The notes beneath the pieces are model-generated. The model made no database searches and was not told the DNA's origin. It worked only from the letters and a program-made list of their open reading frames with translations. Below, one piece after another: positions 14,169 through 60,793 of a stretch of DNA of 64,000 bases. The position numbers were made by a program, and so were the translations under genes. The stretch spans positions 186,001 to 250,000 of the forward strand of contig VMSX01000009.1 of NCBI GenBank assembly GCA_013791905.1, written 5' to 3'. This DNA comes from Rhodocyclaceae bacterium (GTDB lineage Bacteria > Pseudomonadota > Gammaproteobacteria > Burkholderiales > Rhodocyclaceae). Positions within the stretch are counted from its first letter, which is position 1, and each line of letters starts with the position of its first letter.

Positions 14169-15005
14169 TTACTCCGGAATAAAAACGTTTTCGACGCGCC
14201 GCAACGGGTGGCCGTAGAGGCGGGAGAGGCTGTCCACGTCCAGCACCGCCGCGACGGGGCCTTCGACATGGCAGCCATCGCCGAACAACAATAGAGCGCG
14301 GTCGCAGAAGCGCAGCGCGAAATTCGGGTCGTGCAGCACCATCGCAACGGCGACGCTTTCCCTCCGCGCGCAGCTTGATTCCCCCCCGAGAACGCCGCTC
14401 TGCGGCGTTCTCCCCCCAGGGGGCCGAGAAACACTTGGGGCGGCCCGGCGTGTTTCTTGCGCGAACAGTTCGAGCGTGGCAATCTGGTGGTTGAGGTCGA
14501 GGTGGGCGAGCGGCTCGTCGAGCAGGTAGAGACGCGGTTGTTGCGCCAGCAAGGTGGCGATGGCGGCGCGCTGCCGCTCGCCGCCGGAGAGCGTCTGGAT
14601 CGCGCGTTCTTCCATGCCGGCCAGTCCCAGCGACTGTAACGCGGCGCGGGCGATGTCTTTGTCAATGGACGATTCCCAGGCCCAGCGGTCCAGGTGCGGG
14701 TGGCGACCGGTCAGCACGGTTTCCAGCACGGTGCTGGCGAAGGGGTCGCCGCGCTCCTGCCCGAGCCAGCCGCGCAGGCGGGCGGCCGTTTTGATGCCGA
14801 GTTCCGCATACGTGCGACCGTCGAGCCGGATCTCGCCGGCATCCGGCGCGCGCAGGCCGGCCAGGGTGGCGAGCAAGGTCGATTTGCCGACGCCGTTCCT
14901 GCCGAGGATCGCCAGCCGTTCGCCGGCGGCCAGATCGAGGTCGAGCCCAGCGCACACGCGATGCGGTCCGATGCTGACAGTGAGTGCGCGGGCCTGGAGG
15001 ATCAT
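14169..15005 (-). CDS. btuD: Cobalamin-type ABC transporter ATP-binding protein with an inserted repeat segment
   Basis: Cytoplasmic ATPase of a BtuCDF-type importer, 278 aa. Walker A GRNGVGKST, signature LSGGERQR, Walker B LYLLDEPLAHLD and the H-loop LHDPN are all present. Between the Walker B helix (LFAQE) and the strand leading to the H-loop (VAVAMVLHDPN) lie about 30 extra residues rich in Pro, Gly, Ser and Arg. They are encoded by a palindromic repeat element (~14355-14456). The insertion keeps frame, so the protein is probably still made. ATG 15005 overlaps the btuC stop. Confidence 0.92.
   Translation of the reverse strand: MILQARALTVSIGPHRVCAGLDLDLAAGERLAILGRNGVGKSTLLATLAGLRAPDAGEIRLDGRTYAELGIKTAARLRGWLGQERGDPFASTVLETVLTGRHPHLDRWAWESSIDKDIARAALQSLGLAGMEERAIQTLSGGERQRAAIATLLAQQPRLYLLDEPLAHLDLNHQIATLELFAQETRRAAPSVSRPPGGRTPQSGVLGGESSCARRESVAVAMVLHDPNFALRFCDRALLLFGDGCHVEGPVAAVLDVDSLSRLYGHPLRRVENVFIPE
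14428..14456 (+). repeat. Variable-arm hairpin 1, inside btuD
   Basis: Arms GAAACAC and GTGTTTC (7 bp, perfect) around core TTGGGGCGGCCCGGC. Next to it (14369-14425) is a second palindromic part with GAGAACGCCG/CGGCGTTCTC arms and C runs. The whole is read in frame in btuD. Confidence 0.85.
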
Positions 15006-15982
15006 GCTTTCGCGCTGCGGGAAAGCAGATAAAGAAACACCGGCACGCCGATCAGCGCGGTGAGCACGCCGACCGGCAACTGGAGCGGCGCGACGATGGT
15101 GCGCGCCAGCGTGTCGGCCAGCACCAGCAGGCTGCCGCCGGCCAGGACGACGGCCGGCAGCAACAGGCGCTGGTCGTTGCCGATGGCGAGCCGCACCAGA
15201 TGCGGCACGATCAGGCCGATGAAACCGATGGAACCGGCGGTCGTCACCGCGGCGGCGGTGGCCAGCGCCGCGACAAAGTAGACCAGCCGGCGCAACGTCG
15301 GGACGCTCACGCCCAGCGCCAGGGCCTGCTCGGCACCGCGCGCCAGCAGGTTGAGTTCGCGGGCGAAGGGCAGGGCGACGGCCAGCGCTAGCGCCAGCAC
15401 GGCGAGTGTTGGGGCGACCGTGGTGGCTTGCGAAAGGTCGCCCATCAGCCAGAACAGCATGCCGTGGATTTTTTGCTCCGGGGCGAGGGTGAGGATCAGT
15501 GCCACGACGGCACCACAACCGGCGGCGACGACGACGCCGGTCAGCAGCAGGCGCGTCTGCGTCCAGCTGCCGTCGCCGTGGGCCAGGCCGAATACCAGCA
15601 GCATGGCGGCGAGCGCCCCGACGAAAGAGAAGCCGGCAATGCCGATGCCGGCCAGGCCGAGCAGCATGGCGCCAAGCGCCCCCACCCCGGCGCCGCCGGA
15701 AATGCCCAGCACATAGGGATCGGCCAGCGGGTTACGCAGCAGCACCTGCATCAATGCGCCGGCCAGCGCCAGCAGCCCGCCGCAGGCGAAGCCGGCCAGC
15801 GCGCGCGGCAGGCGCAGATCGACGACGATCTGGCGGGCCGGAGTATCAGCGCCCGCCAGAGCGCCAAGAACCTCACCCAAGGCGACCGGCACGCTGCCGA
15901 CCGCCAGCGCCACCGCCAGGCTCGCCATGCTCAGAAGTACGAGCAGGGCGAGGACCAGCAGGGCACGGCGGCGCGTGGGCAT
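15002..15982 (-). CDS. btuC: Cobalamin-type ABC transporter permease, FecCD family
   Basis: Inner-membrane permease, 326 aa, with about ten hydrophobic segments. Family landmarks are LRLPRALAGFACGGLLALAG (residues ~56-75), NPLADPYVLGISGGAGVGA, and GSIGFIGLIVPHLVR toward the end. Forms the translocation channel with BtuD; the binding protein BtuF is encoded convergently 2 kb away. Its stop overlaps the btuD start, and its own start lies 10 bp after btuB. Confidence 0.93.
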   Translation of the reverse strand: MPTRRRALLVLALLVLLSMASLAVALAVGSVPVALGEVLGALAGADTPARQIVVDLRLPRALAGFACGGLLALAGALMQVLLRNPLADPYVLGISGGAGVGALGAMLLGLAGIGIAGFSFVGALAAMLLVFGLAHGDGSWTQTRLLLTGVVVAAGCGAVVALILTLAPEQKIHGMLFWLMGDLSQATTVAPTLAVLALALAVALPFARELNLLARGAEQALALGVSVPTLRRLVYFVAALATAAAVTTAGSIGFIGLIVPHLVRLAIGNDQRLLLPAVVLAGGSLLVLADTLARTIVAPLQLPVGVLTALIGVPVFLYLLSRSAKA

Positions 15983-15992
15983 GTCGGCTACC

Positions 15993-17912
15993 TCAGAACG
16001 CCGCCTTCATCCCGAAACGCCAGTTGCGGGTGAAGTTGACCGGATAGATGGCGTCGTCACGGATCCACAGACCATTCTTGCGCTCAAACAGGTTTTCCAC
16101 GGCGGCGAACCATTCGACGTTGTTGTGGCGATAGCGGTAGGCGACATCGGTGGACTGGTAGGCGGCCTGCTTCTGGGTGAAGGTGTTGGCGAAATCATTC
16201 GCGGCATAGGCGGTGCTGCGCCAGGCGTGGGACAGATTCAGGCTGCTTGCCTTGTCGATCGCGTAGGCCAGGCCCAGCGTGACGCCGTGTCGGGGCACGC
16301 CAGGCAAATCCTTGCCGTTGTAGGCGCCGCCGCCGTCGTTTTCACGGTCGATGATGGCGCGGGTATAGGCATAGTTGAGGCTGACGGAGAGCGGCTCGGC
16401 AACCCGCCAGGTGTCCTGCAACTCCAGGCCGTATTTGCGCGACTTGTCGATGTTGGTGTTGTAGCTCGTCAAAAAGTCACCGGAGTTGTAGTAGTAAATT
16501 TCGTTATCCAGCTTTGCGCGGAAGACGGTGAGTTTCAGCCGGTTTGCGGGGGTGACGTGATTGAGGCCGATATTCAGGGTGCGGCTCCTGGCCGGATTGA
16601 TGAAGCCGTTGAACGCGCCGCTGCTGAAGAAGCGGTCGATATCCGGAGCCTGGAACCCCCGATTGTAGTTGGCAAACAGGCTCAGGCGCTCATCCAGTCG
16701 ATGGTTCATGCCGATGTCCCAGGCATTGAGGTCGTGATCCGCCTTGAGCGCGGCGCCTGCGTTGGGCGCGTAGGTATATTCGACGTTCTCGGCGCGCACG
16801 CCGGCGGAGAGTGTCGTGCCACCAAGACGATACTGGCCCAGGGCGTACCAGCCCGTGTTGTCCTTGCGGGTGTGGTTGGTGGCGTTGATGCGGGTGCCGT
16901 CGAAGGTCTGCACCCCCGCCGTGAAGTCGAGCGCCTCACCCCGGTATTGCAGGGCCACATCGTCGGAGAGGTAGTCGTAATTGGATTTCCAACCGCTGGA
17001 AAACTTGGACAGCTTGTCCTCCTTGCCGTGGCTGGCGGTGAGATTCCAGCTCTGGTTCAGTTCCAGCCCCGCATGCGCACGCCACACGTCCGACTCGAAA
17101 TTTTGCTGGGTGTAGCCTCTGCCGCCGTTCTGTTTTGGGTCGGCATTGAATTGAGCAAGCGTCAATCTGTTTCCGTAGCGCGTGTCGATGCGCGTGCTGG
17201 ACAGGTCCAGGCCGAGCTTCAGCCTGTCCACCGGGCGCAATTCCAGCCCGCCGCGCCAGGTCTGATTGCTGGATGCGTCCTGATAGCCATTTATGTCGGG
17301 AGCGCGGTAGCCATCATGACGAGCGTCATCGGCGCTGACACTGAGGCTGACCTTCTCGTTGATTAGCCCGGCCGTGACCGTGGCATTGCGGGACCCGAAA
17401 TTGCCCGCCGCTACCTGCACCGAAACCCCTTGATGGGCGCGGGTGACGATCTGGATCGTGCCGGCGGTGGCACCGTCGCCGAACAGCACCGAGCCGCTGC
17501 CCTTGGTGATTTCGATGCGCTCGATGTCGGCCAGCGGAATTGAGCCGATGAGCTGGGAAACCATGTCGACGTTGTTGAGTCGGCGACCATCCACGGTGAC
17601 GACAATATTCTGGTAGCCGTCGCCGATGCCATAGCCGCGCATATCGATCTTTGGCGTGGCCTTGTTGCCGAAAGCGGGCAGGACTTGCACGGAGGTGTTC
17701 TGGCCAAGATAGTCATACAGCGTGGCCGCGCCGGATTGCTCGATCATGCGGCGGGTATGCACCTCTGAGGCGTAAGGCGCCAATACGTCAAGCGTGGGTA
17801 GCCGCGTGGCGGTGACGACAACGGCCGCTTCGTCCTCGACAGCGGCAAAGGCGGGTTGAAAAGCAATTGAAAGCGCGACGGCGATGGCCGTGCGTGAAAG
17901 GCGGATAGTCAT
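15993..17912 (-). CDS. btuB: TonB-dependent outer-membrane cobalamin receptor
   Basis: Outer-membrane beta-barrel for TonB-driven corrinoid uptake, 639 aa. Signal peptide from MTIRLSRTAIAVALSIAFQ to AFA, a TonB-box-like stretch EAAVVVTATR, plug-domain motifs IERIEITKGSGSVLFGDGA and a C-terminal Phe expected for an outer-membrane barrel. ATG 17912 is preceded by GGGAG at a good distance, which decides the start. Directly downstream of the cobalamin riboswitch and first gene of btuB-btuC-btuD-cobO-bluB. Substrate assignment rests on the riboswitch and neighbours. Confidence 0.94.
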   Translation of the reverse strand: MTIRLSRTAIAVALSIAFQPAFAAVEDEAAVVVTATRLPTLDVLAPYASEVHTRRMIEQSGAATLYDYLGQNTSVQVLPAFGNKATPKIDMRGYGIGDGYQNIVVTVDGRRLNNVDMVSQLIGSIPLADIERIEITKGSGSVLFGDGATAGTIQIVTRAHQGVSVQVAAGNFGSRNATVTAGLINEKVSLSVSADDARHDGYRAPDINGYQDASSNQTWRGGLELRPVDRLKLGLDLSSTRIDTRYGNRLTLAQFNADPKQNGGRGYTQQNFESDVWRAHAGLELNQSWNLTASHGKEDKLSKFSSGWKSNYDYLSDDVALQYRGEALDFTAGVQTFDGTRINATNHTRKDNTGWYALGQYRLGGTTLSAGVRAENVEYTYAPNAGAALKADHDLNAWDIGMNHRLDERLSLFANYNRGFQAPDIDRFFSSGAFNGFINPARSRTLNIGLNHVTPANRLKLTVFRAKLDNEIYYYNSGDFLTSYNTNIDKSRKYGLELQDTWRVAEPLSVSLNYAYTRAIIDRENDGGGAYNGKDLPGVPRHGVTLGLAYAIDKASSLNLSHAWRSTAYAANDFANTFTQKQAAYQSTDVAYRYRHNNVEWFAAVENLFERKNGLWIRDDAIYPVNFTRNWRFGMKAAF

Positions 17913-18027
17913 TGAAATACTCCCGGTGCGGCCAGCGTCCCCGCAGGCCGTGGTAACGGAACACGCCAAGGGAGAGTCGCGACGGAAGAACCCGACGCGC
18001 CGCCCCCCGCAGCGCAGTTATGGATTG

Positions 18028-18226
18028 TCCGTGGCCGGTCTCCGGGCTCGGAAGTCTTGCTGCTCCGCCTTCCCGGGATGAATCCCAGTGGCCAATTGGA
18101 GCAGCCGCACTTCCCTACCGTTGCGGGGGCAGCCGAGGTATTGCGTGGCGGATGCTGGTCGCGCGCACCTCATTCCCGTTTCACCTGTGGGTCAGATAAA
18201 AATTGACCCGACAGACACCACGGACA
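18028..18226 (-). ncRNA. Cobalamin riboswitch (AdoCbl element)
   Basis: Read on the minus strand, the region has the conserved parts in order. A perfect 8-bp closing stem P1 joins GTCCGTGG (18226-18219) to CCACGGAC (18035-18028). It also has CAGGTGAAACGGGAATGAGG (about 18168-18187), CCCCGCAACGGTAGGGAAG, the B12 box region GCCACTGGG...GGGAAGGC (about 18067-18092), and GACTTCCGAGCCCGGAGACC. It lies 115 bp upstream of btuB and should repress the btuB-btuC-btuD-cobO-bluB transcript when coenzyme B12 is plentiful. Confidence 0.95.
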
Positions 18227-18247
18227 AAGCGGACGAATTATAGGCGC

Positions 18248-18270
18248 GCCGTATCGCCAGCGCCGACTTT
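18248..18270 (-). repeat. 23-bp dispersed repeat, 21 of 23 bases
   Basis: Intergenic copy just upstream of the riboswitch on its transcribed strand. Two adjacent substitutions (GAT for GGG) within the conserved run. Confidence 0.7.
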
Positions 18271-18397
18271 TGGTTTTAGACGTGCGACAGGCGGGTTATC
18301 TGCTGCACCAGGTTTTACTCATGCTGTTGCTGTGATACCTTCACAAGTCACCCGAACTACTTGACTGGTAATTGTTTTTATAACAAACTCCGCGCCC

Positions 18398-18589
18398 ATG
18401 AATGATGAGTTTGGCGGACTCGAAAACAAGGTGAATCAGGTCATAGCCCTGTGCGATGCCTTGCGTGCTGAAAATCATCGGCTGCGCGACCTTGTCAGCA
18501 CGATCGAAAATGAAAAAACGGAACTCACCGAGCGCATGGCGACTGCCCGTACGCGCCTTGAAGATCTGATGGACAGGCTGCCGGAATAA
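18398..18589 (+). CDS. ZapB-like small coiled-coil protein (TIGR02449 type)
   Basis: 63 aa, almost entirely predicted coiled coil with heptad spacing (LENKVNQVIALCDALRAEN, then RLRDLVSTIENEKTELTERM). It sits immediately before zapA and the 6S RNA gene, the usual place of the small TIGR02449/ZapB-like family in Proteobacteria. A cell-division role is likely by association. Start ATG 18398 gives the expected length. Confidence 0.8.
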   Translation: MNDEFGGLENKVNQVIALCDALRAENHRLRDLVSTIENEKTELTERMATARTRLEDLMDRLPE

Positions 18590-18659
18590 TGCCCCCCCAC
18601 GCTCGCAAATTCAGCTCGCTGCCCCCCATGAAATCACCCGAAGCGGTGACAGGAGGGCG

Positions 18660-18692
18660 TCTGCCTCCTTGGGGCGGCCCGGCGGAGGCAGA
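18660..18692 (+). repeat. Variable-arm hairpin 2, covering the zapA ribosome binding site
   Basis: Arms TCTGCCTCC and GGAGGCAGA (9 bp, perfect) around TTGGGGCGGCCCGGC. The right arm contains the GGAG Shine-Dalgarno sequence and ends one base before the zapA ATG. A further block at 18594-18628 is a near copy, inverted, of 49813-49847 in mltA, so the whole element spans about 18594-18692. Confidence 0.88.
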
Positions 18693-19040
18693 ATGAGTTC
18701 GACTCTCGACATCAAACTGCAGGGCCGCGAATACCGGGTCGCCTGTGCACCCGAAGAATTCGATACGCTTAGCGCCGCAGCTGTGTTGCTTGATGCCCGG
18801 ATGGGCGAAGCCGCCCGCACTACCCGCAGTACCGGTGAACGCCTGGCCGTGGTGGCAGCCCTGAATCTTGCGTATGAATTGAATGCCCTGCGCCAGACTG
18901 GCCAGTCCGGGGCGATCCCATCGTCATCTGCTGCCCTTTCAGCCGAAAAAGCCATTGACGCGGAAGACCTGCGGCGTAGAATAAAAAATATGGAAGCGCG
19001 GCTGGATGAGGCGCTCGCCCGGCAGGACGAACTGTTCTGA
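18693..19040 (+). CDS. zapA: Cell division protein ZapA
   Basis: Cytoplasmic protein that cross-links FtsZ filaments. 115 aa. The N-terminal beta-rich domain begins SSTLDIKLQGREYRVACAP and the chain ends in a coiled coil (DAEDLRRRIKNMEARLDEA), as usual for ZapA. Start ATG 18693 is set by the conserved N-terminus. The ribosome binding site is inside the arm of hairpin 2. Followed by the 6S RNA gene, the common proteobacterial arrangement. Confidence 0.92.
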   Translation: MSSTLDIKLQGREYRVACAPEEFDTLSAAAVLLDARMGEAARTTRSTGERLAVVAALNLAYELNALRQTGQSGAIPSSSAALSAEKAIDAEDLRRRIKNMEARLDEALARQDELF

Positions 19041-19084
19041 CAATGTTGGCAAGCTGTTCCGGGCGACGCAGCAAACGGCAGGTT

Positions 19085-19272
19085 GGTCGTCAGCCGGGCT
19101 CACGGAATTCCCTGCAGTGTTCGTCAAGGCCATATATTCCTTGAACCAATACGCATTTGCATCGGCCGCCGCCCATAGACGCTGCTGTTGTGAGCACTCC
19201 TCGTCGAGTGCACCTGAAGCGGCAGGAACGCGGCCCATCTGAACCAAGGTTCAGGATGCCGGCTTAAACGGC
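19085..19272 (+). ncRNA. ssrS: 6S RNA
   Basis: Directly downstream of zapA, where 6S RNA is usually found. Terminal pairing AGCCGG (19092-19097) with CCGGCT (19259-19264) closes a structure of about 188 nt. Motifs resembling known 6S sequences are CCCTGCAGTG then ATATATTCCTTGAACC on the 5' side, GTGAGCA near the apical part, and CTGAACCAAGGTTCAG on the 3' side. Ends are approximate. A strong terminator follows. 6S RNA binds housekeeping RNA polymerase in stationary phase. Confidence 0.8.
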
Positions 19273-19295
19273 ACAGGCGGGGAACCCAGCAAGGC

Positions 19296-19332
19296 ACGGC
19301 CGTCCAAGGAAACCTTGGACGGCCGTTTTTTT
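19296..19332 (+). terminator. Rho-independent terminator after 6S RNA
   Basis: Perfect stem CGGCCGTCCAAGG / CCTTGGACGGCCG with an AAA loop, followed by seven T residues. Confidence 0.93.
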
Positions 19333-19365
19333 GATCTCGCGCCTTCGCGCTGGTAGGATACTGGC

Positions 19366-21254: not shown

Positions 21255-21391
21255 GGGCGGTCGGGGCCAGTGTGCCTGCGGCGAGGTGGCGGTGCGAGGG
21301 GATTGTAGGTCGTGATGTGGTGTCGGCACGAGAATCTTTTCTGGCGCCGCCTGTAGAATGACTGTCTGGAGCAATCTTTTTCAGGCGGAAG

Positions 21392-22644: not shown

Positions 22645-22694
22645 GCGCCGCGCCCCAGCCAGGCGTGCCGGTATACTTGTTAGCGTGAAATACA

Positions 22695-22725
22695 GCGTTT
22701 GCGCCGGGCCGCCCCAAGCAAACGC
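22695..22725 (-). repeat. Variable-arm hairpin 3 with flanking subfamily-A repeat
   Basis: Arms GCGTTTGC and GCAAACGC (8 bp, perfect) around GCCGGGCCGCCCCAA. The flanking conserved part runs to about 22842 (GGCACGCGGCGCCAGCCGCA, GAGCGCAGCGAGCCGT, then a C/G-run hairpin). Fills most of the TauE-GGDEF gap. Confidence 0.87.
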
Positions 22726-22913
22726 GGCACGCGGCGCCAGCCGCAATCCGCGCCGACCCGAACCACCGCGCCCCATGATAGCCGAGCGCAGCGAGCCGTC
22801 TAGAACACCCCGCGAGGGGGGCGAAGGGGGGCGGGTGTCTTTCATGATCGGGGGCGTAGCTCACGCATCATGAAAGTTAACCTTGTGTTGGCATTTTCTT
22901 CCCCCTTTGCCTT

Positions 22914-23978: not shown

Positions 23979-23985
23979 TGCCAGC

Positions 23986-24612: not shown

Positions 24613-24640
24613 GCGCCGCTCCCTCCTGCTGGTCGGGGCA

Positions 24641-25615: not shown

Positions 25616-25773
25616 GGTTTTCTCCTCGTTGGCTGATATTTATTATTCGCAGCGACGCAAGCTACCCTGCTTGCGGGAGAATTTCAAGATCAGACCGGCA
25701 TCCTCATGCGCTATTCACTTGCGGTGCGCCGTACCCCATGCGGGGCACTTCGTCCCGCCAGTCCCGAAAAGGG

Positions 25774-25806
25774 GATTTCCTTCGGTCACGCCGACTTCCG
25801 GAAATC
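25774..25806. terminator. Hairpin at the 3' end of the nucleotidyl cyclase-like gene
   Basis: Arms GATTTCC / GGAAATC with an inner TCGG / CCGA pairing. It overlaps the stop codon of the minus-strand gene. No strong U run, so a transcript-stabilising hairpin is as likely as a terminator. Confidence 0.4.
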
Positions 25807-45182: not shown

Positions 45183-45190
45183 TCGGTTTC

Positions 45191-45829: not shown

Positions 45830-46542
45830 GCTTCAAGAAACTCGCCGGGGCGCCCCAAGAGTTTCTTGGCCCCCCGGGGGGAGGGCCGAGCGCAGCGAGA
45901 ACTTCGGGGGGGGGCTTTATTGTCGGACTGACCGGCGGCATTGGCAGCGGCAAAAGCGAGGCGGCAAATTGCTTTGCCGCGCTGGGTGCCGCTGTGGTCG
46001 ATACTGATGCTATTGCCCATGCCCTGACTGCGGCTGGTGGAGCTGCCATTGAGCCGATCAGGGCTGCGTTTGGTTCGGCCGTGCTGACTCCGGACGGTGC
46101 GCTCGACCGTGTTGCCATGCGCCAGCGTGTGTTTGCCGATCCCGCTGAGAGAGTTCGACTTGAGTCCATCCTGCACCCATTGATCCGCGCTGCCAGCGAG
46201 GAGCAGATACGCTGCTCATCTGACAAAACGGCCAGCGCCGACTTTCCCTATGTCGTTCTTGTCGTGCCGCTCCTGACCGAGTCGGGGGGCTACCGTGAGC
46301 GTGTCAACCGCGTGCTGACGGTCGACTGCCCGGAAGAGACCCAGATTGCGCGCACCATGGCGCGCAGTGCCATGTCACGCAGCGAAGTTGAGGCGATCAT
46401 GGCAGTCCAGGCGAAGCGGCAGGATCGTCTGGCGATAGCCGACGACGTGATTGTTAACGATGCGGGGCTGGACCGTTTGCGGGAGCAGACTGCCTTGCTG
46501 CACTCCCGTTATCTGCAACTGGCGCAGCGTGACGCCGAGTGA
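45826..46542 (+). CDS. coaE: Dephospho-CoA kinase with repeat-encoded N-terminal extension
   Basis: Last step of CoA synthesis. 238 aa versus about 200 usual. Walker A GGIGSGKS is at residues 37-44, whereas CoaE normally starts only ~7 residues before it. The extra ~28 residues (beginning SFKKLAGAPQEFLG) are encoded by hairpin 4 and its G/C-run partner inserted after the first codons; ATG 45826 still overlaps the upstream stop. A run of nine G bases (45906-45914) lies in this part. A second insertion-like segment (residues ~130-141) matches 15 bases of the 23-bp repeat. Confidence 0.93.
   Translation: MSFKKLAGAPQEFLGPPGGGPSAARTSGGGFIVGLTGGIGSGKSEAANCFAALGAAVVDTDAIAHALTAAGGAAIEPIRAAFGSAVLTPDGALDRVAMRQRVFADPAERVRLESILHPLIRAASEEQIRCSSDKTASADFPYVVLVVPLLTESGGYRERVNRVLTVDCPEETQIARTMARSAMSRSEVEAIMAVQAKRQDRLAIADDVIVNDAGLDRLREQTALLHSRYLQLAQRDAE
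45835..45867 (-). repeat. Variable-arm hairpin 4, inside coaE
   Basis: Arms AAGAAACTC and GAGTTTCTT (9 bp, perfect) around GCCGGGGCGCCCCAA (one apparent substitution in the core). Followed by a CCCCCC/GGGGGG palindrome and a G9 tract to about 45915. Read in frame. Confidence 0.86.
46231..46245 (-). repeat. Partial 23-bp dispersed repeat inside coaE
   Basis: Minus-strand AAAGTCGGCGCTGGC, 15 exact bases, then divergence. Encodes part of TASADF in CoaE, in a segment that looks longer than in typical family members. Confidence 0.55.
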
Positions 46543-49404: not shown

Positions 49405-49425
49405 GGGTTAAGCTTTCATTCCTTG

Positions 49426-50757
49426 ATGACCGTTCAATTTAGCAGATTCACCATGCCCACGATTCCAGCTGCCCTGATTTTCCTGATGACATTGGTACTG
49501 TCCGGCTGCGCCGCGCTGCCCCCCCCACCACCACCTGTGCCCTCCACCACTACCGCACCGACCTGCCCACCCTGCGCCGCCTGTCCAGTTTGTCCGGGCG
49601 TCGAGCCGGCCAAGCCGGAGGCCAAGCCCCTGCAGCCTGCCGCCTGGAGCGATCTGCCCGATTGGCTCAGTGATGACCCGCTGCCGGCTTTCGAGGCCTT
49701 TCGAGCGTCCTGCACCACGCTGGCAAAGCGGCCGCTCTGGCGCGCGAGTTGCGAGTCTGCACAAAATGTAAACATCGGCGCCGGGCCGTCCCAAGCCGAT
49801 GTCCCCCCTGTGGGGGGCAGCGAGCCGAATTTGCGAGCGCGGGGGGCCAGTAAAGTCGGCGTTGGCGGGACGGCTTCGGAAACGGCGCGCGCCTGGTTCG
49901 AAGGCCAATTCCAGCCATGGGCGCTGGTCCAGCCGGATGGCGACCGCTCCGGCCTGGTTACCGGCTATTACGAACCGGTGATCCGTGGCAGTCGCACCCG
50001 CAAGGCGCCTTACCTGACGCCGGTGTTCGCTCCGCCGGACGACCTGATCGTGGTCGAACTCGACTCGCTCTACCCAGAACTGAAACACATGCGCCTGCGG
50101 GGCCGCATCGAAGGCCGCAAGCTGGTGCCTTACCTGGATCGTGCCGGCTGGAATGCGCAGGAAATTTTGCGCACCGATGCTGCCCTGCTGTGGGTTGATG
50201 ACCAGCTCGACTTTTTCTTCCTGCAGATTCAGGGCTCGGGTCAGGTGGCGCTCGACGATGGCAGTCGCGTGCGCATCGGCTACGCTGACCAGAACGGCCA
50301 TCCCTATCGCTCGATCGGCCGCTGGCTGATCGACCAGAATGAGTTGCGCGCCCACGAAGCCTCGATGCAGGGCATCAAAGCCTGGGCGGTGGCGCATCCG
50401 CGCCGCCTGCAGGAACTGCTGAACGTTAATCCGAGCATGGTGTTCTTTCGCGAACTGCCCGCCACGGGCAGCGGGCCGCCTGGTGCGCTCGGCGTGCCGC
50501 TTACCCCAGAACGCTCGATTGCCGTAGACCCGCGCCATGTGCCGCTGGGCGCGCCGGTGTGGCTCGCCACCACGCAACCCAACAGCGAACAGGCGCTCAA
50601 ACGCCTGATGCTGGCGCAGGACACCGGCGGCGCCATCCGCGGCGCGGTGCGCGCGGATTTTTACTGGGGCAGCGGGGTTGCCGCCGGCAATCTGGCCGGC
50701 AAGATGAAACAGCGCGGCATGATGTGGGTGCTGCTGCCGCGCGGTCATGCACCATGA
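49426..50757 (+). CDS. mltA: Membrane-bound lytic murein transglycosylase A with repeat insertion
   Basis: Outer-membrane lipoprotein that cleaves peptidoglycan. 443 aa from ATG 49426 (49453 possible). Lipobox LVLSGC, then a Pro/Cys-rich linker. MltA domain: SGLVTGYYEPVIRGS, IQGSGQVALDDG, and the 3D domain with the catalytic-type LMLAQDTGGAIRGAVRADFYWG. Residues ~114-151 (from NVNIGAGPSQ to KVGVGGTAS) are encoded by a composite repeat: hairpin 5, a C/G palindrome, a block also found near zapA, and a 23-bp repeat. The insertion is in frame and lies before the catalytic core. Confidence 0.93.
   Translation: MTVQFSRFTMPTIPAALIFLMTLVLSGCAALPPPPPPVPSTTTAPTCPPCAACPVCPGVEPAKPEAKPLQPAAWSDLPDWLSDDPLPAFEAFRASCTTLAKRPLWRASCESAQNVNIGAGPSQADVPPVGGSEPNLRARGASKVGVGGTASETARAWFEGQFQPWALVQPDGDRSGLVTGYYEPVIRGSRTRKAPYLTPVFAPPDDLIVVELDSLYPELKHMRLRGRIEGRKLVPYLDRAGWNAQEILRTDAALLWVDDQLDFFFLQIQGSGQVALDDGSRVRIGYADQNGHPYRSIGRWLIDQNELRAHEASMQGIKAWAVAHPRRLQELLNVNPSMVFFRELPATGSGPPGALGVPLTPERSIAVDPRHVPLGAPVWLATTQPNSEQALKRLMLAQDTGGAIRGAVRADFYWGSGVAAGNLAGKMKQRGMMWVLLPRGHAP
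49772..49802 (-). repeat. Variable-arm hairpin 5, inside mltA
   Basis: Arms ACATCGGC and GCCGATGT (8 bp, perfect) around GCCGGGCCGTCCCAA (one core substitution in the loop position). Followed by CCCCCCTGTGGGGGG and by 49813-49847, near-identical to the inverse of 18594-18628. Confidence 0.87.
49852..49874 (+). repeat. 23-bp dispersed repeat, 22 of 23 bases, inside mltA
   Basis: One C-to-T change (GGCGTTGG). Encodes KVGVGGTA. Forms the right end of the composite element whose left end is hairpin 5. Confidence 0.85.
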
Positions 50758-50921
50758 ACCGCAATCTCCCGTCATCTTGTGGCATGACCTGAAGAGCAGT
50801 TTTTTCCTGAACCCTGTTTTTCTCCGTTTTCTCTGGGTTTGCCGGCCTCTGGCTGGCAGGATAATGCCGCTTTCGCAATACGGTTATCGGTTGCGATGTG
50901 CGCTATCGGGAGCGGATACCC

Positions 50922-52778: not shown

Positions 52779-52893
52779 AACCATCCCCCCAGCCCCCTTC
52801 CCTGGAAGGGGGTGACTGTTGCTCGCTGCGCTCGTCTATTACGGGGAGCCCCCACGCATGCTTGTGCGCGGATTGCGGCTTTCGCCGCGTGCC

Positions 52894-52924
52894 GTCCCGG
52901 CTTGGGGCGGCCCGGCGCCGGGAC
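52894..52924 (+). repeat. Variable-arm hairpin 6
   Basis: Arms GTCCCGGC and GCCGGGAC (8 bp, perfect) around TTGGGGCGGCCCGGC. Preceded by the conserved GCGGATTGCGGCTTTCGCCG and GGGGAGCCCC blocks. Confidence 0.88.
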
Positions 52925-52955
52925 TACGGTGTAGCTATCTTTGGCACACTTGTAG

Positions 52956-52978
52956 AAAGTCGGCGCTGGCGGGACGGC
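52956..52978 (+). repeat. 23-bp dispersed repeat, exact, intergenic
   Basis: Exact copy located between hairpins 6 and 7. Confidence 0.9.
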
Positions 52979-52999
52979 GTTAAATCCACCCCCGCAGCA

Positions 53000-53030
53000 G
53001 CCTTGCCGCCGGGCCGCCCCAAGGCAAGGC
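53000..53030 (-). repeat. Variable-arm hairpin 7
   Basis: Arms GCCTTGCC and GGCAAGGC (8 bp, perfect) around GCCGGGCCGCCCCAA. Inverted relative to hairpin 6. Followed by the subfamily-A flank up to the dsbC stop. Confidence 0.88.
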
Positions 53031-53147
53031 GGCACGCGGCGCCAGCCGCAACCCGCACCACTGTTAGATCAAAGCTCCCCGTAACAAACGAGCGGAGCGA
53101 GTCAACAGTCACCTCACCCGTGAGGGGGAGGTCGGGAGGGGGCGGGC

Positions 53148-53873
53148 CTATCGGTCTGCGCTGCCTTTGTCGAGCGCCTTCTCCAGCGTCGCCATGGGCA
53201 TGTAGCCCGGAACGCGGCTGCCGTCGGCGAAGAACATCGTCGGCGTGCCGCGAATATTGAGTTTGCGGCCCAGGGCCACCACCTTTTCGGTGGGGTGATT
53301 GCAATTCTTGCTGGCCGGCGCCTGATTGTTGACCATGAAATCGTTCCACGCCTTGACGCGGTCGGAGGCGCACCAGATGTTCTTGGCTTTTTCGGTTGAA
53401 TCAGGTGACAGGATCGGATAGACAAAGGTATAAATCGTCACGTCATTGACGCCCTGCAGCTCCTGTGCCAGCTTCTTGCAGTAGGAACAATTGGGATCCT
53501 CGAAGGTCGCCAGCAGACGCTTGCCGTTGCCTTTTACCTGTTTGATGGCCAGGTCGAGCGGCAGGTCGGAGAACTTGATCTGCGAAAGTTTTTGCTTGCG
53601 CTCCTCGGTAAGATTTTTGCGCGACTGGGCTTCAATAATCTGGCCGAGAATGAGGTGCGTGACTTTTTCGTCTGTATAGATCAGTTCGCCGTCGACCATC
53701 ACTTCGTAAAGGCCCAGCGCGCCCGCTTTGCGCACGGACTCAACCTTCGGCCCATTGCTGCCCAGCCAGGCCTCAACCCCCTTCTTGACCTGCGCTTCGT
53801 TGGCGAATGCGGCCTGGGACAAAAAAAGTGCGGCCAGGCCGCTGAGGAGGGCGAATCGGGAATTGAGTTTCAT
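53148..53873 (-). CDS. dsbC: Thiol:disulfide interchange protein DsbC
   Basis: Periplasmic disulfide isomerase, 241 aa. Signal peptide (MKLNSRFALLSGLAALFLS to AFA), N-terminal dimerisation domain, thioredoxin-fold domain with active-site CSYC and the cis-proline motif RGTPTMFF. ATG 53873 is preceded by GGAG. The stop codon abuts a palindromic repeat. Downstream of, and probably co-transcribed with, the UbiH-type gene (54-bp gap). Confidence 0.95.
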   Translation of the reverse strand: MKLNSRFALLSGLAALFLSQAAFANEAQVKKGVEAWLGSNGPKVESVRKAGALGLYEVMVDGELIYTDEKVTHLILGQIIEAQSRKNLTEERKQKLSQIKFSDLPLDLAIKQVKGNGKRLLATFEDPNCSYCKKLAQELQGVNDVTIYTFVYPILSPDSTEKAKNIWCASDRVKAWNDFMVNNQAPASKNCNHPTEKVVALGRKLNIRGTPTMFFADGSRVPGYMPMATLEKALDKGSADR

Positions 53874-53926
53874 GAAGACTCCGGAAGTGGATTGTGGCAA
53901 ATGAGGTCAAATGGGATCAGGCACGT

Positions 53927-55081: not shown

Positions 55082-55189
55082 GACCGCATTGTCGCGTTCG
55101 CCGGCAATCTTGACAAGTTAGCCCCTCCCGGACCCCCTAGGGGGAGGTGAATGTTTTTTGCCTTCGGCCGCCGCTGCGCGGCTTGCCGC

Positions 55190-55216
55190 CTTGCCTTGGG
55201 ACGGCCTGGCGGCAAG
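55190..55216 (+). repeat. Variable-arm hairpin 8
   Basis: Arms CTTGCC and GGCAAG (6 bp, perfect) around TTGGGACGGCCTGGC, two substitutions from the core. Degenerate copy upstream of the gene at 55257 and 109 bp from the UbiH start. Confidence 0.7.
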
Positions 55217-55256
55217 TCTATGAGCGTATGGGTTATTTGCGCAAAATCGGATTATC

Positions 55257-55613
55257 ATGGCGCTACTTATGGACCCGCTTACTGCAGCCATCGTTGGTTC
55301 TGTTATCAGTTCGGCCGCTCAGGGCTTGTTGATGCCTCCACCTGAAATGCCGGCGACGGGGATTGTTCGCACTCTGCCTGCCGAATCAAAGACGGGAGTC
55401 ATGCAGCCACTTTGGCAGGGGGAGGCGAAGATTGATGGAAAGACCTATATGCTTTCCCCCGGCGCGCAGATTCGCGATGAGCTCAATATGATCATTTTCC
55501 CAACAATGGTGCAAACCCCTGTGCGGGTCCGCTATCAGCTGGACTATGCCGGTGCGGTCCATCGAGTCTGGATTCTGTCCAGCGCCGAGGCGCGGCTGCC
55601 GGGAAACCGTTGA
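55257..55613 (+). CDS. Hypothetical protein, 118 aa
   Basis: Begins with a hydrophobic segment (DPLTAAIVGSVISSAAQGLL) that could be a signal anchor, followed by a small beta-rich region (GEAKIDGKTYMLSPGAQIRD, RVRYQLDYAGAVHRVWIL). Not recognised. Codon use is consistent with a real gene. The ATG is close to a degenerate repeat hairpin; it may be an exported small protein. Confidence 0.65.
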   Translation: MALLMDPLTAAIVGSVISSAAQGLLMPPPEMPATGIVRTLPAESKTGVMQPLWQGEAKIDGKTYMLSPGAQIRDELNMIIFPTMVQTPVRVRYQLDYAGAVHRVWILSSAEARLPGNR

Positions 55614-55654
55614 ATCCATGACGGGTCCGGTTATCAGGTAAAGCAGAGCTTGAT

Positions 55655-56635
55655 TTGAAGACCAAAAGTCTCTCGGTTGTTTTCGAACCGCTCGACAACG
55701 CCCAACTGGCGAACCTGTGTGGGGCGCTGGACGAAAATCTGCGGCAGATCGAGATGGCCTGCGACGTGACGATTTCGCGCCGCGGGGAGCATTGCCGCAT
55801 CGATGGTGTTCTGGCGCAGGCAAGGCTCGCGGCAGCGGCATTGCAGCACTTTTACTCACTGGCGATAGTGCCGCTGTCTGTCGATGACATTCAGCTTGGC
55901 CTGATCGAGCTGAGAAACAACAAGCGGGTGGCGCAGCCCGCCGCCGGCCTGCTGACGCGGAAGGCTGACTTGCATGGCCGTACCCTGCATCAGGTGCAGT
56001 ATCTGCGACAGGTTCAGGAGCACGACATCACCTTCGGCATCGGCCCGGCCGGTACTGGCAAGACCTATCTTGCCGTCGCCTCCGCCGTCGATGCCTACGA
56101 GCGCGACCATGTCCAGCGCATCGTGCTGACGCGGCCTGCGGTGGAAGCCGGCGAGCGGCTGGGTTTTCTGCCGGGCGATCTGACCCAGAAGGTCGATCCC
56201 TACCTGCGCCCGCTTTACGATGCGCTCTATGACCTGATGGGTTTCGATCAGGTGGCGCGTCTCTTCGAGCAGGGCAGCATCGAGGTCGCGCCGCTTGCTT
56301 ACATGCGCGGGCGCACCCTGAATCACGCCTTCATTATTCTCGACGAGGCGCAGAACACCACACCCGAGCAAATGAAGATGTTTTTGACCCGCATCGGCAT
56401 CGGCGCCAAGGCGGTGATTACCGGCGACATCACGCAAATCGATCTGCCCAAGGGCCAGAAGTCCGGTCTGATCGAGGCGCGGCGCATTCTGGCCGAAGTG
56501 CGTGGGCTGGCTTTCACGGATTTCGATGCCGGCGACGTGGTGCGCCATCCGCTGGTGGCGCGCATTGTCGAGGCGTATGAAAAGGAAGTCGCAGAGATGG
56601 CCAATGCCCACGGAGCGGGTGTTGGCCGGAACTAA
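55655..56635 (+). CDS. ybeZ: PhoH-family ATPase (YbeZ)
   Basis: 326 aa. Walker [16 protein letters not shown] near residues 129-143, Walker [12 protein letters not shown], and [10 protein letters not shown]. YbeZ acts with the YbeY RNase in ribosome maturation and RNA quality control. Start TTG 55655 fits the N-terminus; an internal start is less likely. The 3' end overlaps ybeY by 17 bp. Standard phoH-ybeY-corC order. Confidence 0.94.
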
Positions 56636-57080
56636 AAAGAAGTCCGGGCTTGAGCTTTCGTTGTCTGTGCAATATGCCTGCAAAGACGCGCGCTTGCCTG
56701 CGCGTCCGCAATTGCGTCGCTGGGTGCGCGCGGCGCAGGAACAGCCCTTGCAGGCAACCCTGCGGTTTGTCGATGCCGACGAAGGCCAAGCGCTGAATCG
56801 TACCTACCGTGGCAAGGATTACGCGACCAATGTACTGTCGTTTGTCTATGCCAGTGAACCGGCAGTCAGCGGTGATCTGGTGATCTGCCTGCCCGTCGTG
56901 CTGCGCGAGGCAGCGGAACAGGGCAAGCCGTTTTTGGCGCACCTGGCGCATCTGGTCGTGCATGGTATGCTCCACCTACAGGGATACGACCATGAGACCG
57001 GCAAGCGTGACGCCGCTCGCATGGAGGCGCGCGAGCGGGAAGTACTGGCGCGGTTCGACATTCCCGATCCTTATTGCTGA
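56619..57080 (+). CDS. ybeY: Endoribonuclease YbeY
   Basis: rRNA maturation metalloprotein, 153 aa from GTG 56619 (ATG 56604 or TTG 56622 also possible; GGAG at 56612-56615 fits the later codons best). The zinc-binding motif [12 protein letters not shown] carries all three His ligands. [11 protein letters not shown] is the other family signature. Confidence 0.94.
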
Positions 57081-57083
57081 TTT

Positions 57084-57932
57084 ATGGACCTAACCCCTAG
57101 TCGACCGACACTGCTTGAACGGCTCTCATCGCTATTGCTGAGAGAGCCGGAAGACTGCGAACAACTGCTGCAACTCCTGCGTAGCGCCCACGAACGCAAC
57201 CTGATGGATGCCGATGCCCTCTCGATCATCGAGGGCGCCTTGGCCGTTTCCGAAATGCAGGTACGCGACATCATGGTGCCGCGTGCCCAGATGGATGTCA
57301 TCTCGGTTGCCGAATCCCCGGAAAGGCTGGTGGATTTCGTGCTCGAAACCGCGCACTCGCGCTTCCCGGCATTCGGGGAAAGCCGGGATGACGTGATCGG
57401 CATCCTGCTGGCGAAAGACCTGCTGCGCCACTTTGCCGGCAAGGAATTCGATCTGCGCGACAGCCTGCGTCCGGCGGTATTCATCCCCGAATCGAAGCGC
57501 TTGAACGTGCTGTTGCGCGAGTTTCGCGCCTCGCACAATCACATGGCCATCGTGGTCGACGAATACGGCGGTGTCGCCGGTCTCGTCACCATCGAGGACG
57601 TGCTGGAACAGATCGTCGGCGACATCGAGGACGAATACGATTTCGACGAGGCTGCCGGCAACATCGTGCTCGACAACGCGGGTCATTACCGCGTCAAGGC
57701 CGCCACCGAAATCGAGGATTTCAACGCCGCTTTCGGCACGAATTTTTCCGATGAGGATTACGACACCGTCGGTGGCCTGGTGATCCACCAGCTCGGCCGG
57801 CTGCCCAAACGCAATGAAGTCGTGGTGGTCGACGGTCTGCACCTGCAAGTCTTGCGCGCCGACAGTCGGCGCGTCCATACCCTGCTGGTCGATCCGCAAC
57901 GCAGCCTGGCCCTGGCGCGGGAGAAAAGTTAA
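57084..57932 (+). CDS. corC: CBS and CorC_HlyC domain protein (YbeX/CorC)
   Basis: 282 aa. Two CBS repeats (VRDIMVPRAQMDVISVAE; VFIPESKRLNVLLREF) followed by VDEYGGVAGLVTIEDVLEQIVG and a CorC_HlyC domain. No membrane part. Linked to Mg/Co efflux by name and to ribosome assembly by its conserved linkage with ybeYZ. The lnt gene that usually follows is not present here; a palindromic repeat and a convergent transporter follow instead. Confidence 0.94.
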   Translation: MDLTPSRPTLLERLSSLLLREPEDCEQLLQLLRSAHERNLMDADALSIIEGALAVSEMQVRDIMVPRAQMDVISVAESPERLVDFVLETAHSRFPAFGESRDDVIGILLAKDLLRHFAGKEFDLRDSLRPAVFIPESKRLNVLLREFRASHNHMAIVVDEYGGVAGLVTIEDVLEQIVGDIEDEYDFDEAAGNIVLDNAGHYRVKAATEIEDFNAAFGTNFSDEDYDTVGGLVIHQLGRLPKRNEVVVVDGLHLQVLRADSRRVHTLLVDPQRSLALAREKS

Positions 57933-58006
57933 AAAACGCAGCGTTTCTGGTGGCTCCCTCTTCCCCCAGACTCTTCCCGCCAGTGGAGAAGAACACCACT
58001 GCCGCA

Positions 58007-58037
58007 GTCTCGCCGCCGGGCCGCCCCAAGGCGAGAC
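58007..58037 (-). repeat. Variable-arm hairpin 9 with subfamily-A flank
   Basis: Arms GTCTCGCC and GGCGAGAC (8 bp, perfect) around GCCGGGCCGCCCCAA. Conserved flank extends to about 58152, ending at the stop of the convergent transporter gene. Confidence 0.88.
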
Positions 58038-58152
58038 GGCACGCGGCGAAGCCGCAATCCGCTCCCAAGCATGAACGGGGGCGCCCCGTAACAGACGAGC
58101 GCAGCGAGCCGTTTAGAACCCCCCGCGCGGGGGGGCGAAGGGGGGCGGGCGT

Positions 58153-59643
58153 TTAATTGTTCAAGCCGGTGATTGCCGCGCGCATGCGCCACACCATCCA
58201 GATACCCGGCACCGCCGCCACCACCGAGAACAGGAAGAACGCCGGCCAGCCAATCGACTCCGACAGCACGCCAGAGAGTGGGCTGACGTAGATGCGGCCG
58301 ACCGCCGCGAGCGCCGACAGCAGGGCGTAATGCGTCGCCGAGAAGCGCTGGTTGCACAAGCTCATCAACAGCGCGACGAAAGCCGCCGTGCCCATGCCGC
58401 CGGAGATGTTCTCAAAGGCGATCACCGTCATCAGCAGGGAATCGATGTCCGCTGGTGCGGTGGTGGCGACAAAGCCGAGATCGAAGGGCTGCAAAGTGAA
58501 ACCGCCCCAAGCGCCCTTGCCGAGCACGGCAAGCACATAAAAGCCGAAATTTGACAGCAATTGCAGAATGCCGAAGATGAGCAGGGCCTTGTACAGGCTG
58601 ATGCGCAGCATGATGGCACCGGCGGCGAGGGCACCCAGGATGGTCAGCCAGATGCCGATGATCTTGTTGACGATGCCGACTTCCGCCTGCGAAAACGCCA
58701 TGCCCTTGATCAGGAACGGTGTGGTCAGCACCCCGGCGAAGGCGTCGCCCAGCTTGTACAGCACGATCAAAACCAGGAAGGCGATGGCGCCGGGTTTCAG
58801 CATGAAACTATCGAGCGAGCGGTTCAGCGTCTCGAAGCCGGCACGTCGTGCCGCCCAATAGCCCAGCGGCAGCGCGGCGACGATGCTGGCCATGATGAAC
58901 AGCAACTGAATCCACTTGTTCGCATCCTGCGGATCCAGGCCCAGGCCGATCAGCAGCCAGCGCGCGGCAAAGGCGCCACCAAGCACCCCTGCCAGCATGG
59001 CAAAGAAGCCGACCAACTCGCGGCTGGGTGCCGACGCCAGTGGTTTCAGCGCGCTGTTTACGCGCGGCAGGGTCAGCAGCGATACAACGGCGGCGACCAC
59101 GAAGATTGCGGCCATGACGCGGTAAACCTGCCCCCAACTGCCCCACTGATCCGCCCAGATCAGGCTGATGCCGCCGGACAGGATCATGGCAACGCGATAA
59201 CCGAACACAGACATCGATGCGCCCAGACCGCGCTCGCGTGCTTCCAGTACATCGGTACGGTAGGCATCCACCACCACATCCTGCGACGCCGACAGGAACG
59301 CCACCAACACCGCCGCCGCCGCGAACGGCAGCGGCCCGGTAGTGGGCGACAGGCCGGACATCAGGTACAGCATCGCCGCCAGCGCCAGTTGTGTCAGCAC
59401 CAGCCAACCGCGCCGCCGCCCAAGGAAGGGCGGCTCGAAGCGGTCCATCAGCGGTGCCCAGAGGAACTTGAAAGTGTAAGGAATACCCACCAGGCCAAGA
59501 AAGCCGATGGTGGCGATATCAACGCCGTCCACCGTTAGCCAGGCCTGCATGGCCTGACCGGTCAGCGCCAGTGGTAAACCGGAGGCGAAACCGAGAAACA
59601 GGACGGCGGCGATGCGGTGTGCGGAGGAAAGAGAGGAATTCAT
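58153..59643 (-). CDS. ampG: AmpG-family MFS transporter (muropeptide permease type)
   Basis: 496 aa with about 14 hydrophobic helices. Motifs: GFASGLPLALTGQAMQAWL in TM1, FLWAPLMDRF after TM2, SASQDVVVDAYRTD in TM4, all typical of AmpG. Imports anhydro-muropeptides for cell-wall recycling, consistent with MltA activity in the same region. ATG 59643. Confidence 0.9.
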   Translation of the reverse strand: MNSSLSSAHRIAAVLFLGFASGLPLALTGQAMQAWLTVDGVDIATIGFLGLVGIPYTFKFLWAPLMDRFEPPFLGRRRGWLVLTQLALAAMLYLMSGLSPTTGPLPFAAAAVLVAFLSASQDVVVDAYRTDVLEARERGLGASMSVFGYRVAMILSGGISLIWADQWGSWGQVYRVMAAIFVVAAVVSLLTLPRVNSALKPLASAPSRELVGFFAMLAGVLGGAFAARWLLIGLGLDPQDANKWIQLLFIMASIVAALPLGYWAARRAGFETLNRSLDSFMLKPGAIAFLVLIVLYKLGDAFAGVLTTPFLIKGMAFSQAEVGIVNKIIGIWLTILGALAAGAIMLRISLYKALLIFGILQLLSNFGFYVLAVLGKGAWGGFTLQPFDLGFVATTAPADIDSLLMTVIAFENISGGMGTAAFVALLMSLCNQRFSATHYALLSALAAVGRIYVSPLSGVLSESIGWPAFFLFSVVAAVPGIWMVWRMRAAITGLNN

Positions 59644-59741
59644 GATTCGGTCAAGGCGGCCGGTTTATGCGCCGCCGCTCATGCTAGCACCAAGGTTTAC
59701 AGTTGATTCATAATGACGGCTATCGAAAACCGCCTTTTCCC

Positions 59742-60641
59742 ATGTATCCGAGCCACCTCATCCGTTATGTCGATCCGGTGTTTCGCCCGCCGAGCGAAGC
59801 TGAGTCGCTGATCCTGCCCGTCACCGACGGCTGCTCGTGGAACCAGTGCACCTTCTGCGAGATGTATACCGCGCCGCAGAAGAAGTTCCGGGCGCGCGAC
59901 GAGGACGAGGTGCTGGACAGCATCCGCCGTTGCGGCGAGCGCCACGGGGCGGAGATCCGGCGGATTTTTCTCGCCGATGGCGATGCGCTGGTGCTGCCGA
60001 CGCGCCGTCTGCTGAATGTGCTGACGGCTATCCGCGAGCATCTGCCCGGCGTGCGCCGTGTCTCCAGCTATTGCCTGCCGCGCAATTTGCGCAAGAAATC
60101 CGTCGCCGAACTGAAAGAACTGGCCGATGCCGGGCTGAAGATCGCCTATGTGGGCGCCGAATCCGGCGATGATGAAGTGCTGGCGCACGTGAACAAGGGT
60201 GAAACCTATGCGTCCACGGTGGACGCGCTGCTGAAATTGGGCGAGGCCGGCATCACCCGCTCGGTGATGATCCTCAATGGCCTGGGCGGTCGTGAACTGT
60301 GGCGGCAGCATGCCGAAGATTCCGCCCGCCTCGCCAATGCCACGCAGCCTGAATATCTGGCGACGCTGGTGGTCAGCTTCCCTCAGGGGGAAGAGCGCTT
60401 GCGCGCCGGCTTTCCTGGCTGGGAGCCCCTGTCACAGCACGAGTTGTTCGTCGAGATGGAATGCTTCCTGTCCGGTCTGGAGCTCGAACGCACGGTGTTT
60501 CGCAGCGACCACGCCTCGAACTGGCTGATCCTCAAAGGAACGCTGGGCGCAGACAAGGCGCGCCTGCTCGCCCAGGTGCACAGCGCCATTGCCGCGCCGG
60601 AAAGCGTCAAGCTCAGGCCGGCCTGGGCGCGTGGGCTTTAA
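59742..60641 (+). CDS. Radical SAM protein
   Basis: 299 aa. Iron-sulfur motif CSWNQCTFC (C-x4-C-x2-C, slightly wider than the classic C-x3-C-x2-C), followed by a TIM-barrel-like fold (IRRIFLADGDALVLPTRRLL, KIAYVGAESGDDEVL). The variant Cys spacing and the YPSHLIRYVDP start are shared by an uncharacterised radical SAM subfamily. Reaction unknown. ATG 59742 is preferred to a codon 39 bp upstream. Confidence 0.88.
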   Translation: MYPSHLIRYVDPVFRPPSEAESLILPVTDGCSWNQCTFCEMYTAPQKKFRARDEDEVLDSIRRCGERHGAEIRRIFLADGDALVLPTRRLLNVLTAIREHLPGVRRVSSYCLPRNLRKKSVAELKELADAGLKIAYVGAESGDDEVLAHVNKGETYASTVDALLKLGEAGITRSVMILNGLGGRELWRQHAEDSARLANATQPEYLATLVVSFPQGEERLRAGFPGWEPLSQHELFVEMECFLSGLELERTVFRSDHASNWLILKGTLGADKARLLAQVHSAIAAPESVKLRPAWARGL

Positions 60642-60762
60642 TTCAGGCCCGCCCCCTCCCGACCTCCCCCTCGCGGGGGCGGTGACTGTGGCTCGCGTTG
60701 CTCGTTTGTTACGGGGAGCCCCATTCATGATTGGGAGCGGATTGCGGCTGGCGCCGCGTGCC

Positions 60763-60793
60763 GTCTCGCCTTGGGGCGGCCCGGCGGCGAGAC
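60763..60793 (+). repeat. Variable-arm hairpin 10
   Basis: Arms GTCTCGCC and GGCGAGAC (8 bp, perfect) around TTGGGGCGGCCCGGC. Same arms as hairpin 9 in opposite orientation, so the two may be recent copies. Confidence 0.88.

Follow-up and report, generated by a model that had tools for sequence, protein, structure and literature searches.

Within a 64,000-nucleotide stretch of the genome of a Rhodocyclaceae bacterium (assembly GCA_013791905.1, contig VMSX01000009.1, positions 186,001 to 250,000 of the forward strand; hereafter the window), one short core recurs between arms that pair with each other and differ from site to site. The question raised by this locus is what keeps such arms paired while their sequence changes. 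In our view, held at about even confidence, the sites belong to short non-autonomous mobile elements which share a single 3'-terminal recognition hairpin and whose arms are exchanged in blocks. The elements are inserted as units of about 80–160 bp, and the hairpin combines a constant inner part (TTGGG-GCGG-CCCGG with a bulged C) with an outer stem for which pairing alone is required.

A scan of both strands of the window for the 15-nt core TTGGGGCGGCCCGGC, allowing 0–2 changes, gives exactly the ten sites claimed by the original prediction, with core starts at 14435+, 18669+, 22703-, 45844-, 49780-, 52902+, 53008-, 55196+, 58015- and 60771+. The arms which that prediction listed are all present and paired as claimed, except at 55196, where the inner 6 bp alone are exact. 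With up to three mismatches allowed the window holds 20 matches against 8.6 expected, a number reached by none of 100 shuffles; comparable arm pairing was not seen by eye at the ten three-mismatch matches. Across the 3.64-Mb genome the core with at most one mismatch is matched 234 times and a reversed-pattern control not once.

For 82 sites selected by the core alone (at most one mismatch; taken from the window together with 20 stretches and 30 loci from the same genome), the flanking 9-mers form a mean of 7.73 Watson–Crick pairs out of nine, compared with 3.96 when the right arms are swapped (maximum of 2000 swaps, 4.71). An unbroken run of at least eight pairs is present at 50 of the 82 sites, against 5.7 after swapping (at most 15), so that the claim that each arm is the exact complement of the other stands as strong genome-wide pairing but not as invariably perfect pairing. 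At these sites the left 9-mers take 43 different forms and the right 9-mers 39. The proposal of different arms at nearly every site does not extend to the whole genome, where several arms are found repeatedly: GTCTCGCC, GCCTTGCC and GCGTTTGC in elements of type A as defined below, AAGAAACAC in type C and, at a lower frequency, CATGCCTCC in type B. When one site was taken from each of 30 loci found across the order, pairing was 7.07 of nine against 3.53 swapped (maximum of 1000 swaps, 4.57), with one of the nine pairs fixed by the search pattern; the poorly paired exceptions include L316 (two pairs) and L311 (four). A constant core with covarying arms is therefore borne out in both the genome and the order, and a chance origin of core and pairing is ruled out by the window shuffles, the reversed control and the arm swaps. 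The covariation score of 45 sequences with differing left arms, picked partly by a pairing filter, is 0.606, compared with 0.150 for shuffled and at most 0.156 for slid alignments.

The inner fold pairs TTGGG with CCCGG around a GCGG loop. The inner stem, 4-nt loop and bulged C that had been predicted are all there, but two of the five inner pairs are T.G wobbles. Covariation is absent from this inner stem, the TT/GG wobbles and GGG/CCC being almost invariant. Three long-loop copies keep TTGG...CCCGGC and arms paired 8/8 across about 100 nt, with three different stems, and thereby lend support to the structure as such. A fourth copy with a variant loop, L298 on the minus strand, shows a single arm mismatch. 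A CT-rich sequence of about 90 nt lies inside the hairpin loop of L298, L169 and L186, whose arms are nevertheless paired. Rfam 15 at its gathering threshold places no described RNA family at the ten sites, its matches in the window being cobalamin, tRNA and 6S only.

The hairpin had been taken as the whole element, which it is not: it terminates the 3' side of 80–160-bp insertions with at least four different bodies. Script rules applied to the sampled genome sort these into type A (48), B (13), C (12) and D (9), with six unsorted, some of which look C-like by eye. The type A body is about 155 bp long and starts with CCCGCCCC. All 108 type A body ends found carry a hairpin, 104 continuing into the core and four into a variant-loop hairpin; 65 of the 108 come from loci fetched by the core itself. 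The elements of the window are as follows, with ends approximate throughout.

14375–14458, plus strand: type C element, 84 bp; core 14435–14449, arms GAAACAC/GTGTTTC
18588–18692, plus strand: type B element, flanked by a short gene and by a zapA-like gene with its ATG at 18693
18660–18692, plus strand: hairpin of the preceding element, arms TCTGCCTCC/GGAGGCAGA
22679–22884, minus strand: type A element, body and hairpin; core 22703–22717, arms GCGTTTGC/GCAAACGC
45836–45914, minus strand: type C element; core 45844–45858 (one change), arms AAGAAACTC/GAGTTTCTT
49772–49878, minus strand: type B element of the B2 subgroup; core 49780–49794 (one change), arms ACATCGGC/GCCGATGT
52779–52935, plus strand: type A element, left of a head-to-head pair; core 52902–52916, arms GTCCCGGC/GCCGGGAC, 3' end approximate
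52990–53156, minus strand: type A element, right of the head-to-head pair; core 53008–53022, arms GCCTTGCC/GGCAAGGC
55118–55242, plus strand: element with a mixed A/D-like body; core 55196–55210 (two changes), arms CTTGCC/GGCAAG, 6 bp
57933–58158, minus strand: type A element between convergent genes, with extra 3' sequence; core 58015–58029, arms GTCTCGCC/GGCGAGAC
60646–60916, plus strand: type A element; core 60771–60785, arms GTCTCGCC/GGCGAGAC

In the last of these the hairpin is followed by a CT-rich repeat and then by a second half-core with a right arm at 60886–60908. Such half-cores, GGGCGGCCCGGC plus a right arm and no left arm, also occur in L079, L080, L121, L286, L292 and L294; some sit 70–200 nt past a full hairpin, and the second right arm is sometimes unlike the first.

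Comparison with related genomes (numbered with the prefix G; loci with L) confirms the suggestion that these are inserted elements, since relatives lack them as blocks at many sites. The gene that hosts the element at 14435 (84 bp) encodes an ABC transporter ATPase (14169–15005; ABC_tran) and runs on the opposite strand; the insertion gives it 28 in-frame residues that are missing in four relatives (G008, G010, G011 and G015). The sites of the 45836–45914 element (about 79 bp) are empty in G009 and G015 (L089, L096), and the segment 22647–22913 is absent as a block from the same two genomes (L117, L114). The 49772–49878 insertion is shared with G008 and G015, its site being empty in G009, G010 and G011. 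The 18588–18692 element, whose left boundary differs by about 9 bp between relatives and is approximate, is present in G008 and missing from those same three genomes. For 55118–55242 the empty genomes are G008, G010 and G015, and for 57933–58158 they are G010 and G015; the head-to-head pair with its middle (52779–53156) is absent from G010 and largely absent from G015. Over 289 same-place comparisons between genomes, in which redundant loci are counted more than once, the element hairpin is present in 73 and missing by the script criterion in 216. Shared inverted ends of the kind found in miniature inverted-repeat transposable elements were not seen by eye.

We compared 22 same-site genome pairs, which are not independent, some loci entering two or three of them. 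The arms are identical in eight pairs, and over the 37 nt that follow the right arm on its 3' side identity in these is 65–97%. One arm alone has changed in five pairs, three with the 3' DNA kept and two with it replaced. Both arms have changed in nine pairs. In each of these the arms are paired 8/8 in either genome, and each has had its 3' DNA replaced (24–46% identity). No double-sided change was found in the 11 same-site pairs that keep their downstream DNA. Base-by-base covariation in place, implied by the original prediction, thus finds no support in these pairs; the arms seem instead to change in blocks rather than by stepwise compensation. At the 58015 site G008 carries GCCTCGCC/GGCGAGGC in place of GTCTCGCC/GGCGAGAC. 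The arm difference between the 52902/53008 pair and its G008 counterpart (L121) resembles inversion of the middle between the head-to-head copies, so that two of the nine double changes are probably a single inversion; an inverted middle between two related genomes suggests that inverted type A copies recombine.

These observations would be accommodated if a putative trans-acting enzyme recognised the constant inner part of the folded single strand, whether DNA or RNA, while requiring a closed stem beneath that part. If a closed stem of any sequence were sufficient, subfamilies differing in their stems could spread. The block exchanged between copies would run from the left arm through the core and right arm into the adjoining 3' DNA, and the arms would stay matched as a consequence; at a minority of sites the left arm may instead have been rewritten to match the old flank. 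Once inserted, the arms seem to decay as any sequence would.

That minority of sites bears on a different account, in which new DNA arrives on the 3' side of the core, the core then folds back on it, and the left arm is copied from this neighbour during replication. At 18669 comparison with an empty relative, which reads TTGCCGGCAGAATGAG, shows the outer right arm (GCAGA) to be old flank, with the left arm complementary to it; the left arm pairs 9/9 here, and in G008, with an identical right arm, 7/9. B2 elements have a right arm identical to the target sequence GCCGACTTT, which also ends the left flank (at 49772–49878 the right arm aligns to this old flank), and the left arm is complementary to it over 6–8 bp. 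The body of L179/L183 is identical at 50 of 51 positions up to the arm, beyond which arms and 3' DNA differ, an observation in favour of fold-back copying. However, a few recurring arm types make up most arms, as inheritance predicts, and in L010/L195 the left arm is unchanged although the 3' DNA has been replaced. The right arm was not found in the empty site at any type A or C site with inspected junctions, and the bodies at 18669 also differ between the two genomes, so that an exchange of copies may have happened there. The simpler idea that the arms are flanking bases copied in inverted form, raised in the original prediction, accordingly fits 18669 and one B subgroup but is rejected for the inspected type A and C sites. 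Fold-back copying seems to us an unlikely general explanation, and its most specific form, in which the core is a self-priming fold-back end and every new 3' neighbour causes the left arm to be remade as its exact complement, rather an unlikely one too.

A second alternative is that the hairpin acts in RNA after insertion, either stabilising 3' ends, for type A behind stop codons, or masking Shine–Dalgarno sequences, for types B and D before starts; covariation would then reflect ordinary compensatory selection. It draws on the placement of the elements, which we assessed for 54 copies (core with at most two mismatches, at least 5/9 arm pairs) against 396 genes in 450 kb called by a crude codon-usage method of our own. 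Forty-seven copies are intergenic and seven lie within called genes. The gene 5' of the element is co-directional in 37 of the 47: between same-direction neighbours the split is 18 to 6 (p = 0.023), and 19 copies lie between convergent and four between divergent genes, in DNA that contains 42 convergent and 39 divergent junctions. Among type-A-like copies, assigned by the two bases before the arm, the 5' gene is co-directional in 28 of 31, and in 18 of these 28 the core lies 123–132 nt past the stop codon; this is about the body length, and these elements therefore start near the stop codon. The 52779–52935 element starts at that of its upstream gene. The top strand is the better folder in 49 of the 54 copies, and for the gene that lies 5' of an element, the sense strand is in most cases the one on which the hairpin folds best. 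In nine same-strand cases a start codon is called 6–14 nt past the core, and five of these have a right arm containing GGAGG; the right arm at 18669 occupies the expected Shine–Dalgarno position of the zapA-like gene. A preference for one replication strand was rejected, the G-rich strand scoring 31 of 54 copies against 245 of 396 genes. Against a function in RNA, mismatches fall into G.T, A.C and other classes as 11/17/13, 10/10/19 and 9/12/24 in three sets, so wobble pairs are not preferred and G.U is not in excess over A.C in any of them. The lack of double-sided changes where downstream DNA is kept and the high turnover noted above also speak against it, and we consider selection on RNA an improbable source of the pairing.

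The same cap is found on different bodies well beyond this genome: on its own types A–D, on tandem units, on plasmids and in genomes across the order. Core counts in 60 relatives are very uneven (283 in G008, 153 in G015, 100 in G009), and six genomes of the same genus have 0–3 matches, the level of the reversed control (0–8 over 61 genomes). The 17-mer formed by C, core and G occurs in 43 of 399 genomes of the order against one for its reversed control. In a separate scan, the matches listed include metagenome-assembled genomes labelled Rhodocyclaceae and a few labelled Gammaproteobacteria, Rhodobacteraceae or Proteobacteria. A shallow covariance-model scan of 369 genomes of the class, scoring up to 18 candidates per genome, gave matches in three, including that of the window. 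Named carrier plasmids come from Acidovorax temperans, Rhodoferax antarcticus, Azoarcus sp. KH32C and Burkholderia arboris; some plasmid copies have imperfect arms or an altered core, and one lies within a Fic gene. G167, from another family, holds tandem type B units of about 81 bp, the last unit having other arms in both arrays seen. A type A query gave a single plasmid match, in Phenylobacterium and without the hairpin, and a phage collection gave no match to one type B unit.

It had been suggested that no named family fits, which is too strong: two kinds of element, a beta-proteobacterial repeat and the REP elements, come near. IS200/IS605-type ends carry a subterminal hairpin with a stretch that pairs to adjacent DNA. 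The arms here are 6–10 bp long, no fixed short target was seen and no such transposase was found linked. As far as the available part of its description goes, the beta-proteobacterial repeat element (BRE; Hot et al., 2011; PMC3110155) is also GC-rich, 75–91 bp long, mostly intergenic and sometimes intragenic, forms tandem arrays with few bases between units, and has hosts (Comamonadaceae, Azoarcus) that overlap those of type B. It differs in reaching at most 29 copies per genome, and a hairpin with constant tip and covarying stem on multiple bodies does not figure in that part of its description. The tandem units of G167 and the betaproteobacterial plasmid copies agree with these traits, a resemblance of description and not identity; type B is possibly of the same stock. 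Literature searches found no relevant paper on the motif or following up BRE.

Dispersed extragenic hairpins, head-to-head pairs (here 52902/53008 and the L067 and L078 pairs), a bulged base and strand asymmetry are shared with REP/REPIN elements and their RAYTs, as seen in parts of PMC2817692 and PMC8266576, and in the latter TnpA-REP recognises, in a strand-specific manner, a hairpin that is single-stranded and contains a bulged C. True REP/REPIN elements moved by a RAYT (a Y1 transposase) since lost from many lineages would also account for hundreds of dispersed palindromic copies. In contrast to what those sources describe, our elements have a constant apex with a free outer stem and bodies of 80–160 bp rather than 20–40; GTAG/GTGG lies near the 5' foot at one of 82 sites, and no linked RAYT was found. 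A linked Y1 transposase is rejected, the sole Y1 of the genome not being beside an element and only one of 30 fetched Y1 loci (among more Y1 matches) holding a copy, about 1.3 kb off, which can be chance at the present copy density. Over 61 genomes, Y1 matches do not track element number, and several carriers lack one. We therefore regard a lost RAYT as highly improbable. The CGTC-tagged REPs of Di Nocera (2013; PMC3733652, seen in part) are similarly abundant, without a linked transposase and with stem variants inside families, but there the foot is constant, not the apex, and CGTC lies near the foot at two of our 82 sites. The elements work like a hairpin-recognised mobile repeat, and by defining tag and linkage they are not RAYT REPs.

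Several points weigh against mobile elements with block-exchanged arms. No mobilising enzyme was found in a search that covered Y1 (PF01797) and no other enzyme class, and the copy-rich G009, G015, G005 and G024 have no Y1 match. There is no consistent target duplication, an apparent 9-bp duplication of GCCGACTTT being confined to the B2 subgroup. In two of the 22 pairs (L010/L195 and L130/L175) the 3' DNA is replaced and a single arm changed. If block exchange is the mechanism, the near-identical body of L179/L183 would require a break of the exchange within the last few tens of bases. Because the pair scripts demanded at least 6/9 arm pairs in the query and 5/9 in the partner, the count of orthologues with unpaired arms is too low. 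Of the five covariation measures, two exceed the shuffles only weakly, namely pairs changed in both arms and the number of additional pair types, which 29 and 27 of 500 shuffles attained; the orientation test depends on crude gene calls.

B2 elements insert at the end of a 24-mer, AAAGTCGGCGCTGGCGGGACGGCG, which with up to three mismatches occurs 499 times in the genome, evenly on both strands (control 0–1). In the window it lies at 10953, 12899, 18247, 41538, 48626, 49852, 52956 and 62556. Of 18 further genomes in the genus, 17 contain it (184–660 copies), as do two more genera (510 and 738), with controls of 0–1. It is perhaps, at a guess, an uptake- or chromosome-type signal. Near the 18588–18692 element, a cobalamin riboswitch occupies 18016–18237 on the minus strand, and 6S RNA (19106–19287, plus strand) lies behind the zapA-like gene that has the element in its ribosome-binding region.

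These insertions remodel gene starts and reading frames, as in the ribosome-binding region of the zapA-like gene and the frame of the ABC ATPase. The occupied, empty and arm-swapped sites that occur naturally mean that sequence data could separate block inheritance, RNA selection and fold-back copying. If the self-priming end were true, it would be a re-programmable, flank-matched stem, the end of a mobile element that reads its own location. A fixed tip on a free paired stem, carried by different bodies in many genera of one order, offers a handle on how orphan palindromic repeats move.

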